From assembly GCA_027326205.1 (NCBI GenBank), contig DAHWEX010000636.1:1-35177 (forward strand): a stretch of DNA of 35,177 nucleotides, given 5' to 3'. A model generated the notes under the pieces. It made no database searches. It saw only the letters and a program-made list of their open reading frames with translations, and had not been told where the DNA came from. Below, in pieces: positions 3,941 to 20,664 of the stretch. Both the position numbers and the translations under genes were made by a program. Every line of letters starts with the position of its first letter. Within the stretch, counting starts at the first letter, position 1. The stretch is from Actinomycetota bacterium. Lineage in GTDB: Bacteria > Actinomycetota > Actinomycetes > Streptosporangiales > Streptosporangiaceae.

Positions 3941-4300
3941 GTGAACAACTGGCAGGGACAGAACGGCCGAGAACGGGCACGCCAGGTCGCGGCCGCCGTG
4001 GCCGAGCGCGAGCTAGGGCGGCGCCGGCTGAACGCCACCACCGTCACCGTAGGCCTCGCCAGCGTCGCCGTAGCCGGCGTTGTCGTCGCCGTCCTCCCTG
4101 GTGCCAGCCATGCGGCCGTGAAGGGCAGCACCTCCTCGTCCGGCTCCAGCTCGTCCGGCTCGAGTTCGTCGGGCTCGAGCTCGACCGGCTCAAGCAGCTC
4201 ATCGAGCGGCAGCTCGTCCAGCGGGTTGCAGTCGCCGGTGAGCAGCCCCGTGTCCGGCAGCAGCGGCAGCGGCTTCGGTTCCACCTCGGGCGGCTCGTGA
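3941..4300 (+). CDS. Membrane-anchored Ser/Gly-rich protein upstream of apbE
   Basis: With GTG 3941 as start the product is 119 residues: a charged N-terminus (RERARQVAAAVAERELGRRR), one hydrophobic segment (about 35-58), then an exported-looking tail of SSSSG repeats ending in GSTSGGS. TAAAAC lies 8 bases upstream and could be a -10 for a leaderless transcript; no clear ribosome site is seen. An in-frame ATG at 3788 would add 51 residues of unlikely composition. The stop overlaps the apbE start (GTGA), so the two are translationally coupled. I know of no function for such proteins; the linkage suggests a role beside flavinylated or heme redox proteins at the cell surface. Confidence 0.65.
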   Translation: MNNWQGQNGRERARQVAAAVAERELGRRRLNATTVTVGLASVAVAGVVVAVLPGASHAAVKGSTSSSGSSSSGSSSSGSSSTGSSSSSSGSSSSGLQSPVSSPVSGSSGSGFGSTSGGS

Positions 4301-5274
4301 TCTCCGCGGCGAAGAACGCCACGGCGTTCGATGCCTGGACGGCACTGGGCATGCTCGTCCAGCTCGTGGTGGCCGAGCCCCGGCGGCTGGCGCCGGCCCG
4401 GGAACTGCTCGAAGCCGAACTGCTCGCGCTCGACCTCGCCTGCAGCCGGTTCCGCCCGGACTCGGAGCTGGTCGCGGTGGCGAACGTGGCCCGGGGCGCG
4501 TCCGGAGACGTCACGGTGTCGGTGAGCCCGCTGCTGGCCGAGGCCGTGGCGGTGGCGATCCGCGCGGCGCAGCTGACCGACGGAGACGTAGACCCGACCG
4601 TGGGCGGCCTGCTGTCCGCGCTCGGCTACGACCGGGACTTCGCCGACCTCTCCCGTCCCGGGCCCGCGGCGCACCCGGAGAGCCGGCCGGGCACCGTGAC
4701 CGTGCGGACGATCCCCGGGTGGCGCGAGGTGCGGGTCGACGTCGACCGGCACCTGCTGACCGTGCCGGCGCAGACGCAGCTCGACCTCGGGGCGACGGTC
4801 AAGGCGTGGGCGGCGGACCGCGCCGCCGCCAGGATCGCGTCCGCACTCGGCTGCGGCGTGCTCGTCAGCCTGGGCGGCGACACCGCCGTGGCGGGGCCGT
4901 CGCCCGACGGCGGCTGGCGGATACGGGTACAGGACAAGACGGCGCTGCCCGACGCGCCAGTGGACGGGGCCACGCAGGTGGTGAGCATCACCGACGGCGG
5001 GCTCGCCACGTCGTCGACCGTGGCCCGGCGGTGGCAGCGCGGCGGCGACGTGCTGCACCACATCCTCGACCCGCGCACCTGCCGCCCGGCCAAGCCCGTC
5101 TGGCGGACGGTCTCGGTGGCGGCCGGCACCTGCGCCGACGCGAACACCGCCGCGACCGCGGCCATCATCAGGGGCCGTCAGGCCCTGGGCTGGCTGACCA
5201 CGCTGCGGCTGCCCGCCCGCCTGGTCGAGCAGGACGGCGCCGTGCACGTCCTCAACGCGTGGCCGGAGGCCTGA
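4297..5274 (+). CDS. apbE: ApbE-family FAD:protein FMN transferase
   Basis: A 325-residue enzyme of the ApbE family, which transfers FMN from FAD to a Thr/Ser of target proteins. Family motifs in order: SRFRPDSEL (50-58), LDLGATVKAWAAD (162-174), SLGGD (191-195), GGLATSST (234-241), HHILDPRTCRP (254-264; the usual Gly of TGRP is Cys here) and the Mg-site-like DANTAATAAI (281-290). No signal peptide or lipobox is visible, unlike many Gram-negative ApbE proteins, so where it acts is uncertain. GTG 4297 overlaps the upstream stop. A plausible substrate, an FMN-binding protein with a flavinylation motif, is encoded at 20113-20664. Confidence 0.9.
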   Translation: MISAAKNATAFDAWTALGMLVQLVVAEPRRLAPARELLEAELLALDLACSRFRPDSELVAVANVARGASGDVTVSVSPLLAEAVAVAIRAAQLTDGDVDPTVGGLLSALGYDRDFADLSRPGPAAHPESRPGTVTVRTIPGWREVRVDVDRHLLTVPAQTQLDLGATVKAWAADRAAARIASALGCGVLVSLGGDTAVAGPSPDGGWRIRVQDKTALPDAPVDGATQVVSITDGGLATSSTVARRWQRGGDVLHHILDPRTCRPAKPVWRTVSVAAGTCADANTAATAAIIRGRQALGWLTTLRLPARLVEQDGAVHVLNAWPEA

Positions 5275-5294
5275 ACGCCGGGTAAGCCGAGTAA

Positions 5295-5335
5295 ACCGTG
5301 GCTTTCTCCCCCCACTCCAGGGAAAAAACCACGGT
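5295..5335. terminator. Hairpin between convergent apbE and glucosylglycerate hydrolase genes
   Basis: Imperfect inverted repeat: left arm 5295-5310 (ACCGTGGCTTTCTCCC) pairs with 5320-5335 (GGGAAAAAACCACGGT) at 14 of 16 positions, with a 9-base loop. Its place between two convergent genes fits bidirectional termination. Confidence 0.6.
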
Positions 5336-5363
5336 CTGGCTCGTCGGCGACACTGATGAAGGT

Positions 5364-6698
5364 TTACTCCTGTTCGAGCAGCCAGTCGAGAGCTACCGCG
5401 GCCGTCCAGGACTGATGCAGCGAGCCGAGCGGCGCGCCCGTCACCGGGTGGTAGTACTCGCCGAAGGTCTCGTCGGCGAGTTGCGCCAGCGAGGCGGTAC
5501 GCAGCGCCGCTGCCGCGGCGTACTCACCCGTCCGCGACAGCGCCCAGGTCAGCAGCCAGGTGAAGACCGGCCAGGCCGGACCCCGCCAGTAGCAGGCGGG
5601 GTTGTACGCGGCGGAGTACGGCGTCGTCGACGGCGGCACGGCGAACTTGAACGTCGGGTGCCCCGCCCACCGCTCGCCGAGCAGCAGCGACACCTGCCGC
5701 TTGCGCAGCTTGAGCGGCATCACCCCGGCGATCAGCGGCGCGAAGCCGGCGATGGTCTCCGTCTTCAGCCATGCCCTGGTGCGGAGGTCAACGTCGGCGG
5801 CCAGGCCCGATGCCTCGTCGACGTGGCAAAAAACAGCCGCCCTGGCCTGGGCGGCGTAGTCCTTGAGCTCGGCGGCGTCCTCCCCTTCGGACAGCCGCAC
5901 CGCCAAGGACGCCAGCAGGTCGGACGCGCAGGCGTAGATCGCGGTGAACAGCACGTCGCCGACCTGGAACGAACCCCGCTGGCGGAGCAGCCCCGCGTCG
6001 TACGACGCCCGCTTGGCCTCCTCGATCAGCCACAGGTAGCGGTCGTACTCGCGGTCGGTGGGCCGCTGCGCGGCGTCCGCGACGTGCGCCTTGTCCTTCC
6101 GCTGGTAGCGCGGAAGGCCGGGTCCCACCTCCACTCCCGCGTACGGGCCGTCCCAGCGGGGCGAGTTGTCCGTCCCCGACTCCCAGCCGTGGAACAGCGT
6201 CATCAGGCCGGTTTGCTTGTCGGCCCGGTCGCGGGCCAGGAACCGGTGCCAGGCCAGCAGCCGGGGGTAGATGCCCCTGACCCACTCCAGCGTCCTGGAG
6301 TACTCGGGGTCGCCGAGCGACGAGGCGATGGCCAGGATGCGGTCGACCGCGATGGCGTGCACCGGCGGGTCGATGATCCCGCTGGTGGCCGGCTCGGCCG
6401 GCGCCTCCTCGCTGTGCGCGGCGCACTCCCACTGGGCCGGACCCGGCCAGTAGCCGTCGGCGGCGGGATCGAAGACGATGTGCGGCAGCAAACCGTTGCG
6501 CCACTGCCCGGCGAAGAGCGAGTCGAGCTCAAGCCGGGCCCGCGGCAGGTCGATGGTCGCCAGGCCGATCGCGTTGAACGCGGCGTCCCAGCTCCACTGA
6601 TGCGGGTAGAGGGAAGGAGCGGCCTTCGTGATGACGCCGGTGCTGTTGTCGCGCAAGATGTATGCCGCCCGGGCGGCAATCGATAGTGACCCAGTCAT
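5364..6698 (-). CDS. Glucosylglycerate hydrolase (GH63-like)
   Basis: A 444-residue (alpha/alpha)6-barrel glycosidase closely resembling mycobacterial glucosylglycerate hydrolase, which splits 2-O-glucosyl-D-glycerate to glucose and glycerate when cells leave nitrogen or osmotic stress. Shared motifs are YPHQWSWDAAFNAIGL (31-46), WRNGLLPHIVF (66-76), GWESGTDNSPRWD (171-183, with D177 matching the catalytic acid) and FGEYYHPVTGAPLGS (412-426, with E414 matching the catalytic base). There is no signal peptide, so it is cytoplasmic. ATG 6698 is used; a clear ribosome site is not visible. The gene lies on the opposite strand inside what otherwise reads as one redox gene cluster, suggesting insertion. 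No synthase for the substrate is seen in the window. Confidence 0.85.
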   Translation of the reverse strand: MTGSLSIAARAAYILRDNSTGVITKAAPSLYPHQWSWDAAFNAIGLATIDLPRARLELDSLFAGQWRNGLLPHIVFDPAADGYWPGPAQWECAAHSEEAPAEPATSGIIDPPVHAIAVDRILAIASSLGDPEYSRTLEWVRGIYPRLLAWHRFLARDRADKQTGLMTLFHGWESGTDNSPRWDGPYAGVEVGPGLPRYQRKDKAHVADAAQRPTDREYDRYLWLIEEAKRASYDAGLLRQRGSFQVGDVLFTAIYACASDLLASLAVRLSEGEDAAELKDYAAQARAAVFCHVDEASGLAADVDLRTRAWLKTETIAGFAPLIAGVMPLKLRKRQVSLLLGERWAGHPTFKFAVPPSTTPYSAAYNPACYWRGPAWPVFTWLLTWALSRTGEYAAAAALRTASLAQLADETFGEYYHPVTGAPLGSLHQSWTAAVALDWLLEQE

Positions 6699-6975
6699 AT
6701 TGTAACAATCACGTTTCCGAATGTGTCGGTCATGTTAACAGCGGTGGCAATAAGGAACTTCCGGCAAAGACGCGCATTCTCGTGGAGGCGCATTACCACA
6801 GGCGAAGTTACCCGCCAAGGCCGGCCCGCGCCATGAACGAGACGTCCCGGAAGGCACAGCATTGGTGAAGCCGGGAGATAGCAGCCGTTACGGTCCGTTA
6901 ACCAGAACCAGTGTTTAGAGCTACTTCAGAGGAACTTTGAACCAACTGCTCGGCAAGGGGAGTCACACTGAAATC
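6699..6975. promoter_or_regulatory. Divergent intergenic region with palindromes
   Basis: This region is less GC-rich than its neighbours and separates two divergent genes. It contains ATTGTAACAAT (6699-6709, an odd-centred palindrome touching the hydrolase start) and two GTTAAC sites (6734-6739 and near 6897-6902). These could be operators for either gene. No confident -35/-10 pair was found. Confidence 0.35.
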
Positions 6976-7608
6976 GTGAGCGGAATCAACTCTTCAACCG
7001 TCATGTGGTATGCCAGCCGTGCCACGGGCGTGGTCGCGCTGCTGTTGCTGACGGCGGTGCTGCTGCTCGGCATCGGCGTCGCCAGGGACAAGCGGCTCCC
7101 CGGGCTGCCGCGGTTCGCCGCCAGCGGCCTGCACCGGAACGTGTCCCTGCTGGCGACGGCGTTCGTGGCGGTCCACGTCGTGACCGCGGTCGCCGACGGG
7201 TTCGTGAAGATCCCGATCACCGCCGCGGTGGTCCCGCTGGCGTCGTCGTACGAGCGGTTCTGGCTCGGGGCGGGAGCGGTGAGCTTCGACCTGATGCTCG
7301 CCGCGGTCATCACCAGCCTGCTCCGCCGTCACCTGTCGCGCAAGACGTGGCGCGGCGTCCACCTGACCGCCTACCTGTGCTGGCCGGTCGCGTGGTTCCA
7401 CTCGGTCTTCGCCAGCAAGGACATCCAGCACGGGCCGCTGCTCGCGGTCGGCATCGCCTGCGCGCTCGCCGTCCTCGCCGCCGCGATGTGGCGGGTGGCC
7501 GAGGCGGGCAAGGACGTACCGCGCGCGGAACGAGTCGCCCTGCTCATGGCCGCCGCGCATAGCAGAATTCACAGCAAGGGCAGCCGGGAGAGGACCTTCG
7601 CCCAGTGA
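6976..7608 (+). CDS. Ferric-reductase-like transmembrane heme protein
   Basis: About 210 residues with five to six hydrophobic segments of the ferric reductase/cytochrome b type. Candidate heme-ligand histidines lie in SGLHRNVSLLATAFVAVHVV and in RRHLSRKTWRGVHL...WFHSVF. GTG 6976 gives the usual-looking start (SGINSSTVMWYASRATG); TTG 6937, with AGAGGA close by, would add 13 residues. The gene ends in TGA overlapping GTG of the next gene (GTGA). It probably passes electrons across the membrane from the flavoprotein/ferredoxin pair encoded downstream. It lacks the FAD/NAD domains of full ferric reductases, which fits a need for partner subunits. Confidence 0.8.
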   Translation: MSGINSSTVMWYASRATGVVALLLLTAVLLLGIGVARDKRLPGLPRFAASGLHRNVSLLATAFVAVHVVTAVADGFVKIPITAAVVPLASSYERFWLGAGAVSFDLMLAAVITSLLRRHLSRKTWRGVHLTAYLCWPVAWFHSVFASKDIQHGPLLAVGIACALAVLAAAMWRVAEAGKDVPRAERVALLMAAAHSRIHSKGSRERTFAQ

Positions 7609-8921
7609 CCGCCGTGACGGACAGCACCGAGAGCGACGCCGCGGTTGGCCTGCCCCGCCTGCTGCCGCCCCCGCAGGAGAAGCGGGCCAGGCAGGGCCTG
7701 GAGCAGCACCTGGCGCGGCACGGGCGGCTCCCGTACCGCGACCGCGCGGGCACCCTGATCCGCGACATCGAGTCCGCCGGGCTCACCGGACGGGGCGGCG
7801 GCGCCTTCCCGGTCCACCGCAAGCTCCAGGCCGTCAGCGACGCCGCCGACCGGTACCGCCGCACCCCGGCGGTGATCGCCAACGGCGCGGAGAGCGAGCC
7901 GGCCAGCGACAAGGACGCCACCCTGCTGTGGCTCTCCCCGCACCTGGTCCTCGACGGGCTGCAACTGGCGGCCGAGGCCGTCGGCGCGGATACCGCGATC
8001 CTCTACACTCACGCCAACCGCAAGAACGACGTGGGCGCGCGCCTGCGCGAGGCCATCGCGCAGCGGCAGGAGCGCGGCATCGACCGGGTCCCGGTGCAAC
8101 TCGCCGAGGCCCCCGCCCGCTTCCTGGCCGGCCAGGAGACCGCGCTGCTCAGCCACCTGTCCGGCCGGGCGGCGGTCCCCACGTTCATGCCCCCCAGGAT
8201 CACCGAGCGCGGCCTTGGCAACGCGCCGACCCTCGTCCAGAACGTGGAGACGCTCGCGCACCTGGCGCTGATCGCCCGCAGGGGCCCCCGCTGGTTCCGC
8301 GCCGTCGGCACCGAGCAGGAGCCGGGCTCGATGCTCGCCACCGTCCGCCGTCTCGACGGCCAGCCGAAGATCAGCGAGGTCCCGCTCGGCATCCCGCTGC
8401 TGACGCTGACCGGCGAGCTCCGCCAGGACGGCGCGGTGCTGATCGGCGGCTACCACGGCACGTGGGTCACCGCCGGCCAGGCACAGCAGCTGACCATGGA
8501 CAACGCCTCGCTGGCCAAGGCGCAGGCGAAGGTCGGCGCGGGCATCGTCATCACGCTCCCGTCCGACCGCTGCGGCATCGTCGAGACGGCCAGGGTGGTG
8601 CGCTACCTCGCCCTGGAGAGCGCCGGGCAGTGCGGCCCCTGCCTCAACGCGCTGCCGAGGATCGCCGCCGCGCTCGCCGAGATCGCCGGCGGACGCTTCC
8701 GCAAGGGCACGCTGGAGGACGTCGACCGCTGGTCGGACCAGGTGGCCGGCCGCGGTGCCTGCCACCACCCGGACGGCACGACCCGGTTCGTCGCCAGCGC
8801 GCTGCGCACGTTCGCCGCCGAGGTCGCCCTGCACAAGGCCGGCCGCTGCTCGGCGGCCAGCAAGAAGCCCTTCCTGCCCGTCCCGCAGGCCACCGCCCGC
8901 GCCGAAACCGACTGGATCTGA
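7605..8921 (+). CDS. NuoF/RnfC-like flavoprotein (complex I 51-kDa family)
   Basis: A 438-residue cytoplasmic oxidoreductase. The FMN loop GRGGGAFP (62-69), the NAD-site-like NGAESEP (93-99), and VQNVETLAHL (211-220) match the 51-kDa family, followed by an SLBB-like region (about 255-290) and a C-terminal iron-sulfur domain with C343, C346 (QCGPC) and C386 (RGACHHPDG). The classical S-C-G-x-C-x-x-C has Ala (A340) at the first cysteine. GTG 7605 overlaps the preceding stop. It likely takes electrons from NAD(P)H and delivers them to the ferredoxin and heme membrane protein in the same operon; there is no NuoE partner. Confidence 0.85.
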   Translation: MTAVTDSTESDAAVGLPRLLPPPQEKRARQGLEQHLARHGRLPYRDRAGTLIRDIESAGLTGRGGGAFPVHRKLQAVSDAADRYRRTPAVIANGAESEPASDKDATLLWLSPHLVLDGLQLAAEAVGADTAILYTHANRKNDVGARLREAIAQRQERGIDRVPVQLAEAPARFLAGQETALLSHLSGRAAVPTFMPPRITERGLGNAPTLVQNVETLAHLALIARRGPRWFRAVGTEQEPGSMLATVRRLDGQPKISEVPLGIPLLTLTGELRQDGAVLIGGYHGTWVTAGQAQQLTMDNASLAKAQAKVGAGIVITLPSDRCGIVETARVVRYLALESAGQCGPCLNALPRIAAALAEIAGGRFRKGTLEDVDRWSDQVAGRGACHHPDGTTRFVASALRTFAAEVALHKAGRCSAASKKPFLPVPQATARAETDWI

Positions 8922-8935
8922 GGAGGTTTACCGCC

Positions 8936-9136
8936 ATGGCCGACAAGCTCCTGGTCAACCCCATCGACTGCAAGGGACACGCCGCCTGCGCCGAACTGCT
9001 GCCCGAGGCCATCACGCTCGACGAGTGGGGTTACCCGGTCCTCGACCCCCGCCCGCTGCCGCCCGGCCTGGAGCGGCACGCCAGGGCCGCCGTCTCCGCC
9101 TGCCCCACCCTCGCGCTGCGCCTGCAGCGCGCCTGA
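8936..9136 (+). CDS. Small atypical ferredoxin
   Basis: A 66-residue ferredoxin. Its cysteine pattern is C12-x2-H15-x2-C18 with a later C56-P (SACPTLAL), so one ligand of a classical [4Fe-4S] set is replaced by His. This matches the [3Fe-4S] or His-containing ferredoxins that serve P450s and other oxidases in actinomycetes. A strong AGGAGG lies 8 bases before ATG 8936. Operon position suggests it carries electrons between the NuoF-like flavoprotein and the membrane heme protein. Confidence 0.88.
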   Translation: MADKLLVNPIDCKGHAACAELLPEAITLDEWGYPVLDPRPLPPGLERHARAAVSACPTLALRLQRA

Positions 9137-9287: not shown

Positions 9288-9353
9288 TTGACACTCCCAA
9301 ATGACTGTACTTATATTTTGAGAGTAGCTTTCATTTAATGGTTGCTTCTCAAA
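9288..9353 (+). promoter_or_regulatory. Promoter and operator of the MFS-TetR operon
   Basis: TTGACA (9288-9293) and TATATT (9312-9317), 18 bases apart, form a near-consensus vegetative promoter. An inverted repeat follows immediately: TTTGAGA (9317-9323) and TCTCAAA (9347-9353). It overlaps the expected transcription start and is a good candidate operator for the TetR protein encoded by the second gene of the operon. Confidence 0.7.
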
Positions 9354-9366
9354 GGTGGTGACTGTC

Positions 9367-10983
9367 ATGACCGGTCCCGGCGATGTCACGCACTCCGCCC
9401 GCCGCTGGTGGGCGCTGGTCGCGATCGCGGCCAGCGTCCTCGTCGTCGGCCTCGACCTCACGGTGCTCAACCTCGCGCTGCCGACGATGGCGGTGAGCCT
9501 GCACGCGAACACCGGCGACCTGCAGTGGATTGTCGACTCCTACAGCCTGGTTCTCGCCGCGCTGATCCTGCCGGCGGGCCTGCTCGGCGACCGCTACGGC
9601 CGCAAGCGGTTGCTGCTCGTCTCGCTGGTCATCTTCGGCGCCGGTTCCCTGGCGTGCTCGTATGCGTCCTCGGTGGGCGAGCTCATCGCATTCCGCGCGA
9701 TCCTCGGCATCGGCGCGGCGGCGATCTTCCCCCTCGCGCTGTCCGTGCTGCCCGTTCTGTTCGCCCCGGAAGAGCGGCAGAAGGCGGTCGCCGCCATCGC
9801 CGGGTCGACCATGCTCAGCTTCCCCGTCGGACCGATCGTCGGCGGCTTCCTGCTGAACCACTTCTGGTGGGGCTCGGTCTTCCTGATCAACGTCCCGGTC
9901 GTCGTCATCGCGCTCTTTGCCGTCGGGCTGCTGATGCCCGAGTCCAAGTCGGCCAGGCGGCCGAGCATCGACCTGGCGGGCCTCGCCGTCTCCACGGCGG
10001 GCCTGGTCGCGCTGACCTACGGCTTCATCAAGGCCGGACAGGACGGCTGGTCCGACGCCGCGGCCCTGGGGCTGATCGCGGCGGGCGCCGTGGTGCTGGC
10101 CTCGCTGCCCCTCGTGGAGCGCCAGATCGCCCGCCGGGGAGGGCAGCCCCTCGCCGACCTGCGACTGTTCGGCTCGACCGGGTTCCGCTGGGGCACGATC
10201 CTGGCCACGGTGGTGTCGTTCGCGATGTTCGGCATCTTCTTCGCGCTGCCACAGTACTTCCAGGGCGTCCGGGGCACGGACGCCCTCGGCAGCGGCCTCC
10301 GGCTGCTCCCGATGATCGGCGGCATGCTGGTCGGCATGGTGGCGGGCACGCGCCTGTCGGGCCCCAGGAGCGCGGGAAGGCCGGCCCTGGCCGGCCCGCG
10401 GATCCTGGTCACCGTCGGCTATCTGCTGATGGCCGCGGCCATGGCGCTCGGCGCGCTTACCGCCCTGGGCAGTTCCACCGGGTACGTGCTCGGCTGGGTC
10501 GCCCTTTCCGGGCTCGGCCTGGGCCTGGTGATGCCGTCCGCGATGGGCGTCGCCCTCGGCGCGCTGTCGGCCGAGCGCAGCGGGGCCGGCTCCGCTCTGC
10601 TCACGGCGCTGCGCCAGGTCGGCTCGACGGTCGGCGTGGCCGTCCTCGGCACGGTGATCGGCAACAGCTACGGCAGCGGCGTCGCCGCGGCGGCCTCAAG
10701 GCTGCCGTCCGCAGCGGCGGCCGCGGTGCGGTCCAGCGTGGGCTCTGGCGTCGCGGTGGCGGCCAGGGCAGGCTCGTCGTCGCTGCTCGACACGGTCCGC
10801 TCATCGTTCGTGCACGGGATGGACCTCATGCTCTGGACCTGCGGCGGCATCGCGGTCGCCGCCGCGCTCCTGGCGGTGGTCGCCTTGCGCTCGCGCGGCC
10901 CGCAGGGCGCGGCCGGAACAGGTGCCGGCGCGGAGCCGGGCTCAGGTGCCGACACCGAAGCCGGTTCGCTTCCTGTCAGGTAG
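9367..10983 (+). CDS. MFS transporter, DHA2 (EmrB/QacA) drug efflux family
   Basis: A 538-residue membrane protein with about 14 hydrophobic segments. It carries the MFS signature GDRYGRKRLLL after the second helix, LDLTVLNLALPTM in helix 1, and GPIVGG in helix 5 (the antiporter motif C region). ATG 9367 is chosen because AAAGG lies just upstream; GTG 9355 and 9358 are alternatives. DHA2 proteins expel hydrophobic drugs in exchange for protons. A TetR gene begins 17 bases downstream in the same operon, a standard regulator-pump pair. Confidence 0.92.
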   Translation: MTGPGDVTHSARRWWALVAIAASVLVVGLDLTVLNLALPTMAVSLHANTGDLQWIVDSYSLVLAALILPAGLLGDRYGRKRLLLVSLVIFGAGSLACSYASSVGELIAFRAILGIGAAAIFPLALSVLPVLFAPEERQKAVAAIAGSTMLSFPVGPIVGGFLLNHFWWGSVFLINVPVVVIALFAVGLLMPESKSARRPSIDLAGLAVSTAGLVALTYGFIKAGQDGWSDAAALGLIAAGAVVLASLPLVERQIARRGGQPLADLRLFGSTGFRWGTILATVVSFAMFGIFFALPQYFQGVRGTDALGSGLRLLPMIGGMLVGMVAGTRLSGPRSAGRPALAGPRILVTVGYLLMAAAMALGALTALGSSTGYVLGWVALSGLGLGLVMPSAMGVALGALSAERSGAGSALLTALRQVGSTVGVAVLGTVIGNSYGSGVAAAASRLPSAAAAAVRSSVGSGVAVAARAGSSSLLDTVRSSFVHGMDLMLWTCGGIAVAAALLAVVALRSRGPQGAAGTGAGAEPGSGADTEAGSLPVR

Positions 10984-19195: not shown

Positions 19196-20116
19196 GTGAG
19201 CGGACGGGTGCTTGTGCCCTGGGAGAGCGTCAGCGCCTCCCTGGCTGACCTGACGGACGGCGCCGGGCTGCGCGTCGAGGTGTTCGACGGCGACGCCCCG
19301 GCCCCGGCAGACCTGGGCGATGTCGTGTTCTACACCGCGCCGTACGACCGGCCGTTCCGGCTCGAGCCCGTCAAGCGGCTGGCCGGCGTCAAGGTGATCC
19401 AGACGCTTAACGCCGGCTACGACGACCTGCTCCCGCTGCTGCCGCCGGGCGCGACCCTGTGCAACGCCCGCGGCCTGCACAACGCGGGCACGGCCGAGCA
19501 CGCGCTCGGGCTGATCCTCGCCGCCCAGCGGGAACTGCCGCGCTGGATCCGGGCCCAGGACAAGGGCGACTGGGAGCACGCGCACACGCGGGCCCTGGCG
19601 GGCAGCCGGGTGCTGATCGTCGGCTACGGGTCGATCGGCGCCGCGCTGGACGCGCGGCTCGCCGCCTGCGAGGCGGAGACGATCCGGGTCGCGCGCCGCC
19701 CCCGCCCGGCCGACCGCGTCCGCGGCGTGGCCGACCTCGACGCGCTGCTGCCCGGCGCCGACGTCGTCGTGCTGGTGACCCCGCTCAGCCCGGACACCCG
19801 CGGCCTGCTGGACGCGCGCCGCCTCGCCCTCCTGCCGGACGGCGCCCTCGTGGTCAACGTCGGCCGCGGCCCGGTGCTCGACACCGCCGCGATCGAGGCG
19901 GAAACGGCCAGCGGCCGGCTCCGCGCGGCGCTCGACGTCACCGACCCGGAGCCGCTGCCCGGTGACCACCCGCTGTGGCGGACCCCCGGCGTGATCATCA
20001 CCCCGCACGTGGCCGGCGGCGCCGACGACTTCTACCCCAAGGCCGCCGCCTTCGTCACCGCCCAGGTCCGCCGCTTCGCCGCCGGGCAGCCCCTGGTCAA
20101 CGTCGTCTCCGGCTAG
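19196..20116 (+). CDS. D-isomer-specific 2-hydroxyacid dehydrogenase
   Basis: A 306-residue NAD(P)-dependent dehydrogenase. The Rossmann motif VGYGSIGAALDARL is followed by the catalytic Arg in VVNVGRGPVLD, Glu in DPEPLPGDHPLW and His in ITPHVAGG, the family triad. GTG 19196 is chosen because GGAG lies 7 bases upstream; ATG 19178 lacks a ribosome site. It reduces a 2-keto acid or oxidises a D-2-hydroxy acid; the substrate is not evident. It diverges from the transketolase gene, and its TAG overlaps the TAG of the convergent FMN-binding gene. Confidence 0.88.
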   Translation: MSGRVLVPWESVSASLADLTDGAGLRVEVFDGDAPAPADLGDVVFYTAPYDRPFRLEPVKRLAGVKVIQTLNAGYDDLLPLLPPGATLCNARGLHNAGTAEHALGLILAAQRELPRWIRAQDKGDWEHAHTRALAGSRVLIVGYGSIGAALDARLAACEAETIRVARRPRPADRVRGVADLDALLPGADVVVLVTPLSPDTRGLLDARRLALLPDGALVVNVGRGPVLDTAAIEAETASGRLRAALDVTDPEPLPGDHPLWRTPGVIITPHVAGGADDFYPKAAAFVTAQVRRFAAGQPLVNVVSG

Positions 20117-20664
20117 GCGCTCGCCTGGTCCAGGGCGCTCTGCAGGGACTGGATGTAGCCGGAACTGGTGTAGCTGGCGCCGCTTACCGCGTTGATGCGG
20201 GCGCTTTGCGCGGCGAGGGTCTCACTGGTCAGCATGGGGATAGCGTTGGCGTCAATCTGGTCGCTGAGGGCGCCCTCGTTCGTCCGCTGCAGCACGGTGA
20301 CGTTGGTGATCTTCGCGCCTGCCAGGGTCACCTGCACCTGCATGGGCCCGTACGCGGTGTTCGCCACCGTGCCGGTGACGGTGCGGACCGCCGTCGCCGC
20401 CGGCGGCGTGCTGGCGCCCGCGCTCGCCTTGGCGGTCGCGGCGGTGCTCTTGCCGGCGGCTGTGCTCTTGCCGGCGGCGGAGTGCGCGGCGCCGGCGCCG
20501 GCGGTGGCGCCGGCGGCGGCCGGCTGTGTCGCGGCGGACGAGGTGGCGGCCGCGGCGGCTGGCGCGGCGACCGGGTTGGTCGCCGCCAGCGAGTGGGTGC
20601 GGAACGAGAGCAGTGCGGCCAGCCCGGCGACGGTGCCGCCTATGGTCAAGACAGCGCGGCGCAT
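20113..20664 (-). CDS. FMN-binding domain protein, probable ApbE substrate
   Basis: A 183-residue exported or anchored protein: N-terminal hydrophobic segment after MRR, a long Ala/Thr/Ser-rich linker (about 30-92), then an FMN-binding domain (95-183) as in NqrC/RnfG. The flavinylation motif is SGASYTSSG (161-169); the position usually Thr (SGAT) is Ser164. ApbE would attach FMN by a phosphoester bond there. GGAGG lies 8 bases before ATG 20664. It is 28 bases downstream of the ferric reductase gene on the same strand, so the reductase probably feeds its flavin across the membrane. Confidence 0.88.
   Translation of the reverse strand: MRRAVLTIGGTVAGLAALLSFRTHSLAATNPVAAPAAAAATSSAATQPAAAGATAGAGAAHSAAGKSTAAGKSTAATAKASAGASTPPAATAVRTVTGTVANTAYGPMQVQVTLAGAKITNVTVLQRTNEGALSDQIDANAIPMLTSETLAAQSARINAVSGASYTSSGYIQSLQSALDQASA

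Follow-up and report, generated by a model that had tools for sequence, protein, structure and literature searches.

Organization of the locus

The window analysed here is a stretch of 35,177 bases, contig C221 of a 6.16-Mb, 830-contig assembly from a soil actinobacterium. It carries a run of plus-strand genes in which a small Ser/Gly-rich membrane protein, here termed the tether, precedes ApbE, an FAD:protein FMN transferase (FAD, flavin adenine dinucleotide; FMN, flavin mononucleotide), followed by a membrane cytochrome, a NuoF-like flavoprotein and a ferredoxin. Protein families in the window were assigned by Pfam. Gene order, domain families, the C-terminal heptapeptide of the tether, its charge orientation, its disorder prediction and the heme His residues were all obtained by computation. 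The cluster comprises the following features.

3941–4300 (including stop), plus strand: tether, with an Arg-rich N-terminus, one predicted transmembrane helix and a Ser/Gly-rich tail (sequence and relatives)
4277–4297, plus strand: C-terminal heptapeptide G-S-T-S-G-G-S, a proposed flavinylation site whose terminal Ser would accept FMN (sequence, kept in relatives; published motif in PMC12052999)
4297–5274, plus strand: ApbE, FAD:protein FMN transferase of the tether-associated class, with no signal peptide visible (PF02424, 1e-46, 160 bits)
5364–6698, minus strand: MGH1-like glycoside hydrolase, between the two halves of the cluster (PF22422, 2e-93)
6937–7608, plus strand: Ferric_reduct-like membrane cytochrome (PF01794, 2e-8)
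7605–8921, plus strand: NuoF-like flavoprotein (PF01512, Complex1_51K, 9e-33; PF10589, NADH_4Fe-4S, 6e-16)
8936–9136, plus strand: single-cluster ferredoxin, C-x2-H-x2-C...CP, with three Cys (Fer4_15)

The original prediction described this region as a split flavin–heme–iron-sulfur electron-transfer locus with its own flavinylation enzyme, and Pfam bears out both the families and their order. The locus does lie in two halves, but the cause, the minus-strand hydrolase, had gone unmentioned. The GTGA overlaps claimed within each half are present at 4297–4300 (tether/apbE) and 7605–7608 (cytochrome/NuoF-like), but the NuoF-like and ferredoxin genes do not overlap. The tether open reading frame (ORF) ends at 4300 and has candidate starts at 3941 (GTG, the earlier choice), 3884 or 3788.

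Conservation and spread of the cluster

The search for ApbE covered 60 genomes, the window's own included, with matches in 31, and a collection of 84,980 species, where the matched stretches held at least 572 relatives, the best 80 of which were kept. The set of 107 loci used below omits three own-genome loci of another ApbE class, and six of its members repeat another locus. The gene-neighbourhood search that had been suggested for this locus did uncover a shared order. ApbE, heme protein, NuoF-like protein and ferredoxin follow one another at 73 of the 107 loci (two with the hydrolase inside), a recurrence that places the gene order above chance; another 17 have ApbE and the heme gene, the remainder being cut off or undetected. 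Hosts include Streptomyces, Actinacidiphila, Frankia, Klenkia, Amycolatopsis, Pseudonocardia, Kutzneria, Nocardia and Rhodococcus.

In a sample of the phylum, 12 of 396 genomes, the window's own among them, carry an ApbE of the tether class at a cut-off of E 1e-40, which misses divergent members; the cluster is thus a minority trait. Nine plasmid records also carry a tether-class ApbE. Five plasmid loci were inspected (L178–L182), the clusters lying on large plasmids of Rhodococcus, Arthrobacter, Gordonia and Cnuibacter. In all five, genes for ApbE, a ferric reductase-like protein, a NuoF-like protein and a ferredoxin follow one another and a tether-like protein precedes ApbE; this last protein is annotated (as hypothetical) in one of the five gene tables, which are incomplete.

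Parts of the cluster also occur separately. A tether stands beside the heme gene, with ApbE not adjacent, at L148, L159, L163 and L167. At eleven more distant heme–NuoF–ferredoxin loci (L149–L156, L158, L164 and L165), whose NuoF shares 36–41% identity with that of the window, neither a nearby ApbE nor a tether with the motif was found. Conversely, ApbE is found near two-component-system-like genes with no heme, NuoF or tether gene adjacent at L060, L098, L114 and L124 (two titled Mycobacterium), and in all four a small ferredoxin gene follows it.

Architecture of the tether

Tethers were recognized by a filter for a helix, flanking Arg/Lys (at least two before the helix) and low complexity, which is blind to the C-terminal motif. 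The filter picked a tether-like protein ahead of apbE at 92 of the 107 loci, yielding 86 nonredundant sequences. Among the remaining 15 loci, four are at contig ends (L049, L057, L096, L141), one is ambiguous (L143) and two have a tether that the filter failed to pick (L062, L086). The usual build is an Arg-rich N-terminus, one hydrophobic helix and a low-complexity tail of 29–169 residues (median 69). Tail sequences diverge into Ser/Gly, Thr/Ser or Ala/Pro types, while the C-terminal end is kept: the invariant or nearly invariant positions of a 23-row alignment are M1, R23 and G26 and, at the end, S116, G117 and S119.

The 20 residues ahead of the helix hold 5.3 Arg or Lys on average and the 20 behind it 0.45, a bias that fits an orientation with the N-terminus inside and the C-terminus outside. 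An AlphaFold model has a single helix at residues 7–51, after which the predicted local distance difference test score (pLDDT) is mostly below 50, and the tail is thus predicted to be disordered. No Pfam family reached its cut-off in the tethers of the window and seven relatives (FMN_bind was absent as well), nor did any NCBIfam family in four tethers, the window's included. The tether was also considered as a truncated FMN_bind protein and this was rejected, as its orthologues are equally short and none of the seven scanned carries the domain. Export by the twin-arginine translocation pathway was likewise rejected, since by eye the twin Arg is not conserved. In a more distant set (L168–L177), a small membrane protein precedes ApbE at nine of ten loci, with none at L168. 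Locus L173 has two tandem tether-like genes before one ApbE, with the ends TAFSGGS and AVSGGS.

The C-terminal heptapeptide

ApbE recognizes the motif D-x-x-[S/T]-G-A-[S/T] and places FMN on its last residue (PMC12052999). Seven residues suffice for labelling and tags work best at a protein terminus; replacing the Asp with Ala has a minor effect, and Ser is accepted as the last residue, less well than Thr (PMC12052999). The motif has also been given as DxxxGA[T/S] (PMC10722498). The conserved tether end, often [H/D/Q]-x-x-[S/T]-G-[A/G]-S-COOH, shares the length and pattern of this minimal motif and therefore looks like a flavinylation site. The window's GSTSGGS is a partial match, and the tether of Streptomyces griseoruber DSM 40281 (L104) ends in DSTSGAS.

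A strict form of the end, [ST]G[AG][ST]-COOH, occurs in 62 of the 86 nonredundant tails (12/22 in the discovery set and 50/64 in the set fetched once the motif had been noticed). Across 2000 shuffles of the tails, strict ends averaged 0.51 in 86 and never exceeded 5; the pattern was found in 34 of 5805 internal windows and in none of 1101 other coding-like ORFs. Of 83 tails, 74 have Ser as their last residue. Among the 62 strict tails, 39 carry D, N, H, Q or E at position −7, versus 15% in linkers, and the full published motif in the form D-x-x-[ST]-G-A-S is found in 10/86, all with D at −7. Codon use varies beneath the conserved residues, with all four Gly codons at −3 and TCN, ACN and AGC at −4. 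Tails rich in Ala and Pro likewise end in TGAS or TGAT (L127, L139, L147).

ApbE and the electron-transfer partners

The model of the window ApbE has a mean pLDDT of 88 and matches ApbE structures (Foldseek 6nxi, E 6e-19). Two classes can be separated by similarity in the 60 genomes: 27 places match the window ApbE at E ≤ 1e-39 and 23 match more weakly. The weaker group contains only places returned by the search with the window ApbE, and holds at least two of the tether kind, namely a contig-end fragment in genome G003 and a place in G055 (L166) whose tether ends in TTTGASGG. Of the active-site residues known from Vc ApbE (Ser 241, His 257, Asp 285), the Ser and His are kept, and in a sequence alignment the place of the Asp appears to be taken by Asn; Ser 239 and His 254/255 do not vary among 19 tether-type ApbEs.

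The membrane cytochrome has His 66, 80 and 142 in 22/22 aligned sequences and His 155 in 21/22, and these four conserved columns fit a protein with two b hemes. The NuoF-like protein resembles NuoF, HydB and HoxF in having Nuo51 FMN and NADH_4Fe-4S domains. Its best match in the PDB is NiFe hydrogenase subunit B, and it scores far below the NCBIfam cut-offs for NuoF equivalogs. Both its Gly-rich FMN motif and its NADH motif of the ESEP type are retained. NuoF of complex I has four Cys at its 4Fe-4S site, as is also visible in the alignment to the PDB match. The NuoF-like protein keeps three and lacks that four-Cys site: unlike NuoF, HydB and HoxF, all 23 aligned members have Ala in place of the first Cys of the cluster motif, together with CGPC, and 17 read exactly SAGQCGPC, as in the window. 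Three Cys columns are common to an alignment of 24 ferredoxins.

A tethered flavin as the proposed function

The tether is probably an ApbE substrate that has no domain, a flavin tag of natural origin carried on a disordered string, and would serve a path from NAD(P)H to the outside of the cell. It would be the substrate of the ApbE encoded right after it, and its C-terminal Ser would receive the FMN. Beyond a one-helix anchor, the tail would run as a disordered string with its C-terminus outside, making the FMN a mobile carrier at the outer membrane face or in the wall. NAD(P)H would donate electrons to the NuoF-like flavoprotein, from which they would travel by way of the three-Cys ferredoxin and the pair of b hemes in the Ferric_reduct-like protein to the tethered FMN, which would reduce an external acceptor. 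We infer this order of carriers from the protein families, along with the direction of flow, the acceptor and the flavinylation itself. A path from NAD(P)H to the outside had been proposed before and is plausible; the part of it that is not supported is the inclusion of a second, FMN-binding operon, taken up below. With somewhat less assurance, we lean towards a broader proposal, that such tethers form a new flavoprotein class with scattered members across the Actinobacteria: disordered and domain-less, carrying FMN on a C-terminal Ser, paired with a dedicated Asn-type ApbE that lacks a signal peptide, and probably flavinylated in the cytosol before export of the tail.

Several observations weigh against this proposal. 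The window's own heptapeptide has no Asp, has Gly for Ala and ends in Ser and not the preferred Thr. Twenty-four of the 86 tails are not strict, and the motif is missing from L052, L054 and L063. The Gly at −3 is lost in SRGS (L088 and L148) and TQGS (L138), and its replacement extends to lineages that include Mycobacteriales and Micrococcales (HTRSRGS, HARTQGS, HARSAGS, HTTTRAS, HATTKGS). None of the five plasmid tethers has a strict end (SAGS twice, TRAS, TAAS and TKGS), and in the distant set only three of ten do (L169, L172, L173), the others including SGGTGD (on a longer protein), SSSGS, SSNAS, SSGS, SGQTTCD and SGSTVCS. Moreover, tail composition favours Ser and Gly, and the sequences are related, so that the counts are not independent. 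At eight loci ApbE has no adjoining tether (L059, L060, L080, L085, L098, L105, L114, L124). In the stretch examined, ApbE and a motif-bearing tether are both absent from three heme–NuoF–ferredoxin loci with NuoF 47–66% identical to the window's (L160, L161, L162); the genome of L162 carries an ApbE–tether pair on another contig (L042), and a search of the genome of L161 found no tether-class ApbE.

The enzyme raises difficulties of its own. No signal peptide was seen by eye, with no predictor run, on 29 ApbE N-termini, a sample that includes one contig-end fragment and two members of the other class. By its sequence, ApbE should therefore be cytosolic, with the tether tail outside; either labelling precedes export or ApbE exits by an unseen route, and how a cytosolic-looking ApbE labels a residue meant to end up outside is a question that the proposal raises. 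An own-genome ApbE that neighbours FMN_bind (L066) likewise shows no signal peptide by eye. In addition, Asn (N283) is found in 19/19 tether-type ApbEs where ApbEs neighbouring FMN_bind have Asp. This position seems to correspond to Vc Asp285, which belongs to a conserved active-site trio. The Asp belongs to an ADALxTA-like motif, in which it is present in all five readable FMN_bind-neighbour ApbEs, with Glu in three others (L030–L032).

The Asn substitution could lower catalysis, and it lends some weight to an alternative in which the heptapeptide has a docking or regulatory role, bound unmodified to the active site of ApbE or to the cytochrome. The relaxed motif of several lineages points the same way. 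However, a terminal Ser in most tails, a conserved block as long as the published minimal motif, and the invariant Ser 239 and His 254/255 of the enzyme all speak for modification, and we regard an unmodified peptide as unlikely.

Slightly less likely again is that ApbE flavinylates an FMN-binding protein encoded elsewhere, the Ser/Gly-rich protein being structural or a scaffold. The candidate substrate belongs to the second operon mentioned above, in which the original prediction placed an FMN-binding protein and a full ferric reductase; Pfam agrees on both, on the minus strand.

20113–20664, minus strand: FMN_bind protein with the motif VSGASYTS, read by eye, in a separate operon (PF04205, 1.4e-8)
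20693 to about 22195 (start approximate), minus strand: ferric reductase with FAD and NAD domains (PF01794, PF08022, PF00175)

The FMN_bind protein has a good motif and no adjoining ApbE, lying 15 kb from the window's, and at L147 (Streptomyces nymphaeiformis) FRE, FMN_bind and the cluster stand together. Yet L147 is the only one of the 107 loci with an FMN_bind-like gene near the cluster (tblastn, stretch examined). FMN_bind lies within 3 kb of none of the 27 tether-class ApbEs versus 13 of the 23 weaker ones, and elsewhere in the window's own genome, on contigs C42 and C525, other ApbEs do adjoin FMN_bind. Eight of the 21 genomes with a tether-class ApbE, the window's own counted among the 21, have no FMN_bind match at all (G018, G026, G040, G043, G045, G048, G051, G059); six are at least 93% complete, with G026 at 88% and G040 at 77%. 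DUF2271 and NQR2/RnfD were also not found in these eight, in a search that did not extend to DUF3570 or flavodoxin-type substrates. An FMN_bind gene hidden within the cluster was sought separately by low-stringency tblastn at 30 loci and rejected, the only hits being own-genome paralogues and one weak match in L052.

Five of the eight genomes (G026, G040, G043, G048, G051) have a single ApbE match. In one of these, G043 (100% complete, 3 contigs), FMN_bind, DUF2271 and NQR2/RnfD were searched with no match; its ApbE lies beside a ferredoxin (L060), and a tether-like protein ending in VSRGS directly precedes the heme gene 1.5 Mb away (L148). The NuoF gene of G043 is at L148 too, like the tether-like and heme genes, away from ApbE. 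Serving the FMN_bind protein would also leave the conserved heptapeptide unexplained. The likelier ApbE substrate is the Ser/Gly-rich protein itself, and the FMN_bind protein with its operon is probably a separate system, though this ApbE might serve the FMN_bind protein of the window as well.

Finally, it is highly improbable that the tail is no more than a low-complexity linker in the wall, with a terminal SGGS or SGAS that stems from composition or the apbE gene overlap: the tails are indeed Ser- and Gly-rich, and the last codon is often TCA or TCG, as ATGA/GTGA overlaps would favour, but shuffled tails give only 0.5 strict ends in 86, Ala/Pro-rich tails end alike in TGAS or TGAT, and the overlap constrains just one base of the last codon, the third.

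Relation to known systems

The gene combination had been thought undescribed, but clusters of PF01794 with apbE are in print. A survey by Meheust et al. (2021, eLife, PMC8238504) reports MsrQ-like PF01794 clusters from Actinobacteria; apbE and a gene for an FMN-binding protein typically accompany them, and 31 include a NuoF-like gene (PF10589). The window cluster resembles these in pairing a PF01794 cytochrome with apbE and, as in some of them, a PF10589 gene, and in the flow from NAD(P)H to extracytosolic FMN that is proposed for them. The survey calls a cluster MsrQ-like when a PF01794 gene lies within five genes of ApbE or FMN_bind; this holds for the window, as does the NuoF-like PF10589 gene that defines the subset. 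In contrast to the typical MsrQ-like cluster, no FMN_bind gene was found in the window cluster. A further condition of the survey was that ApbE, FMN_bind, DUF3570 or DUF2271 carry a signal peptide or a lipidation site (PMC8238504); by that rule, we would expect most tether-type clusters to have been filtered out.

The same survey reports VIT1 in 153 MsrQ-like clusters (PMC8238504), and genes of the VIT family are found close to two of the five inspected clusters on plasmids. Iron is thus a reasonable guess, and Fe(III) as the external acceptor is offered as such.

The new part is the Ser/Gly-rich tether protein, the combination of ApbE, Ferric_reduct and NuoF-like proteins being already published. 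The expectation that the role of this protein was undescribed holds up, as no account of it was found in searches of the open-access literature. Nor did these turn up a description of a domain-less tether, most subscription papers lying outside that search. The closest precedent is the engineered Flavin-tag, in which a seven-residue terminal motif is likewise enough for ApbE to attach FMN (PMC12052999, PMC10722498). The published tag is engineered and reads D-x-x-[ST]-G-A-[ST], whereas the tether end is natural and often [H/Q/D]-x-x-[ST]-G-[G/A]-S. Multi-flavinylated proteins of the SaFMN3 type also share features with the tether, being Streptomyces flavoproteins with flexible linkers rich in small residues, but they carry FMN in folded FMN-binding domains and the tether has no predicted folded domain (PMC10339131). 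ApbE substrates are described as folded, and FMN reductases have a predicted site on an unstructured C-terminal extension (PMC11334425).

If the proposal is true, a bare peptide is a natural ApbE substrate, and electrons have a flavin route across the actinobacterial membrane that does without an FMN_bind domain. It would also add clusters that a survey filtered by signal peptide would omit.

Neighbouring genes

Among the 107 loci, the glycoside hydrolase stands between the ApbE and heme genes only in L038 (full) and L040 (partial). Such rarity makes it look like a local insertion, and it is probably outside the electron-transfer system. At L162 the hydrolase adjoins the heme gene.

A search of the window for RNA families and tRNA genes found none. 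Downstream of the ferredoxin lies a gene for a major facilitator superfamily (MFS) transporter (9355–10983), with a TetR-like sequence readable by eye in the frame behind that gene. A sigma-70-like site (TTGACA, 18, TATATT; 11/12) stands ahead of the transporter gene at 9288–9317.

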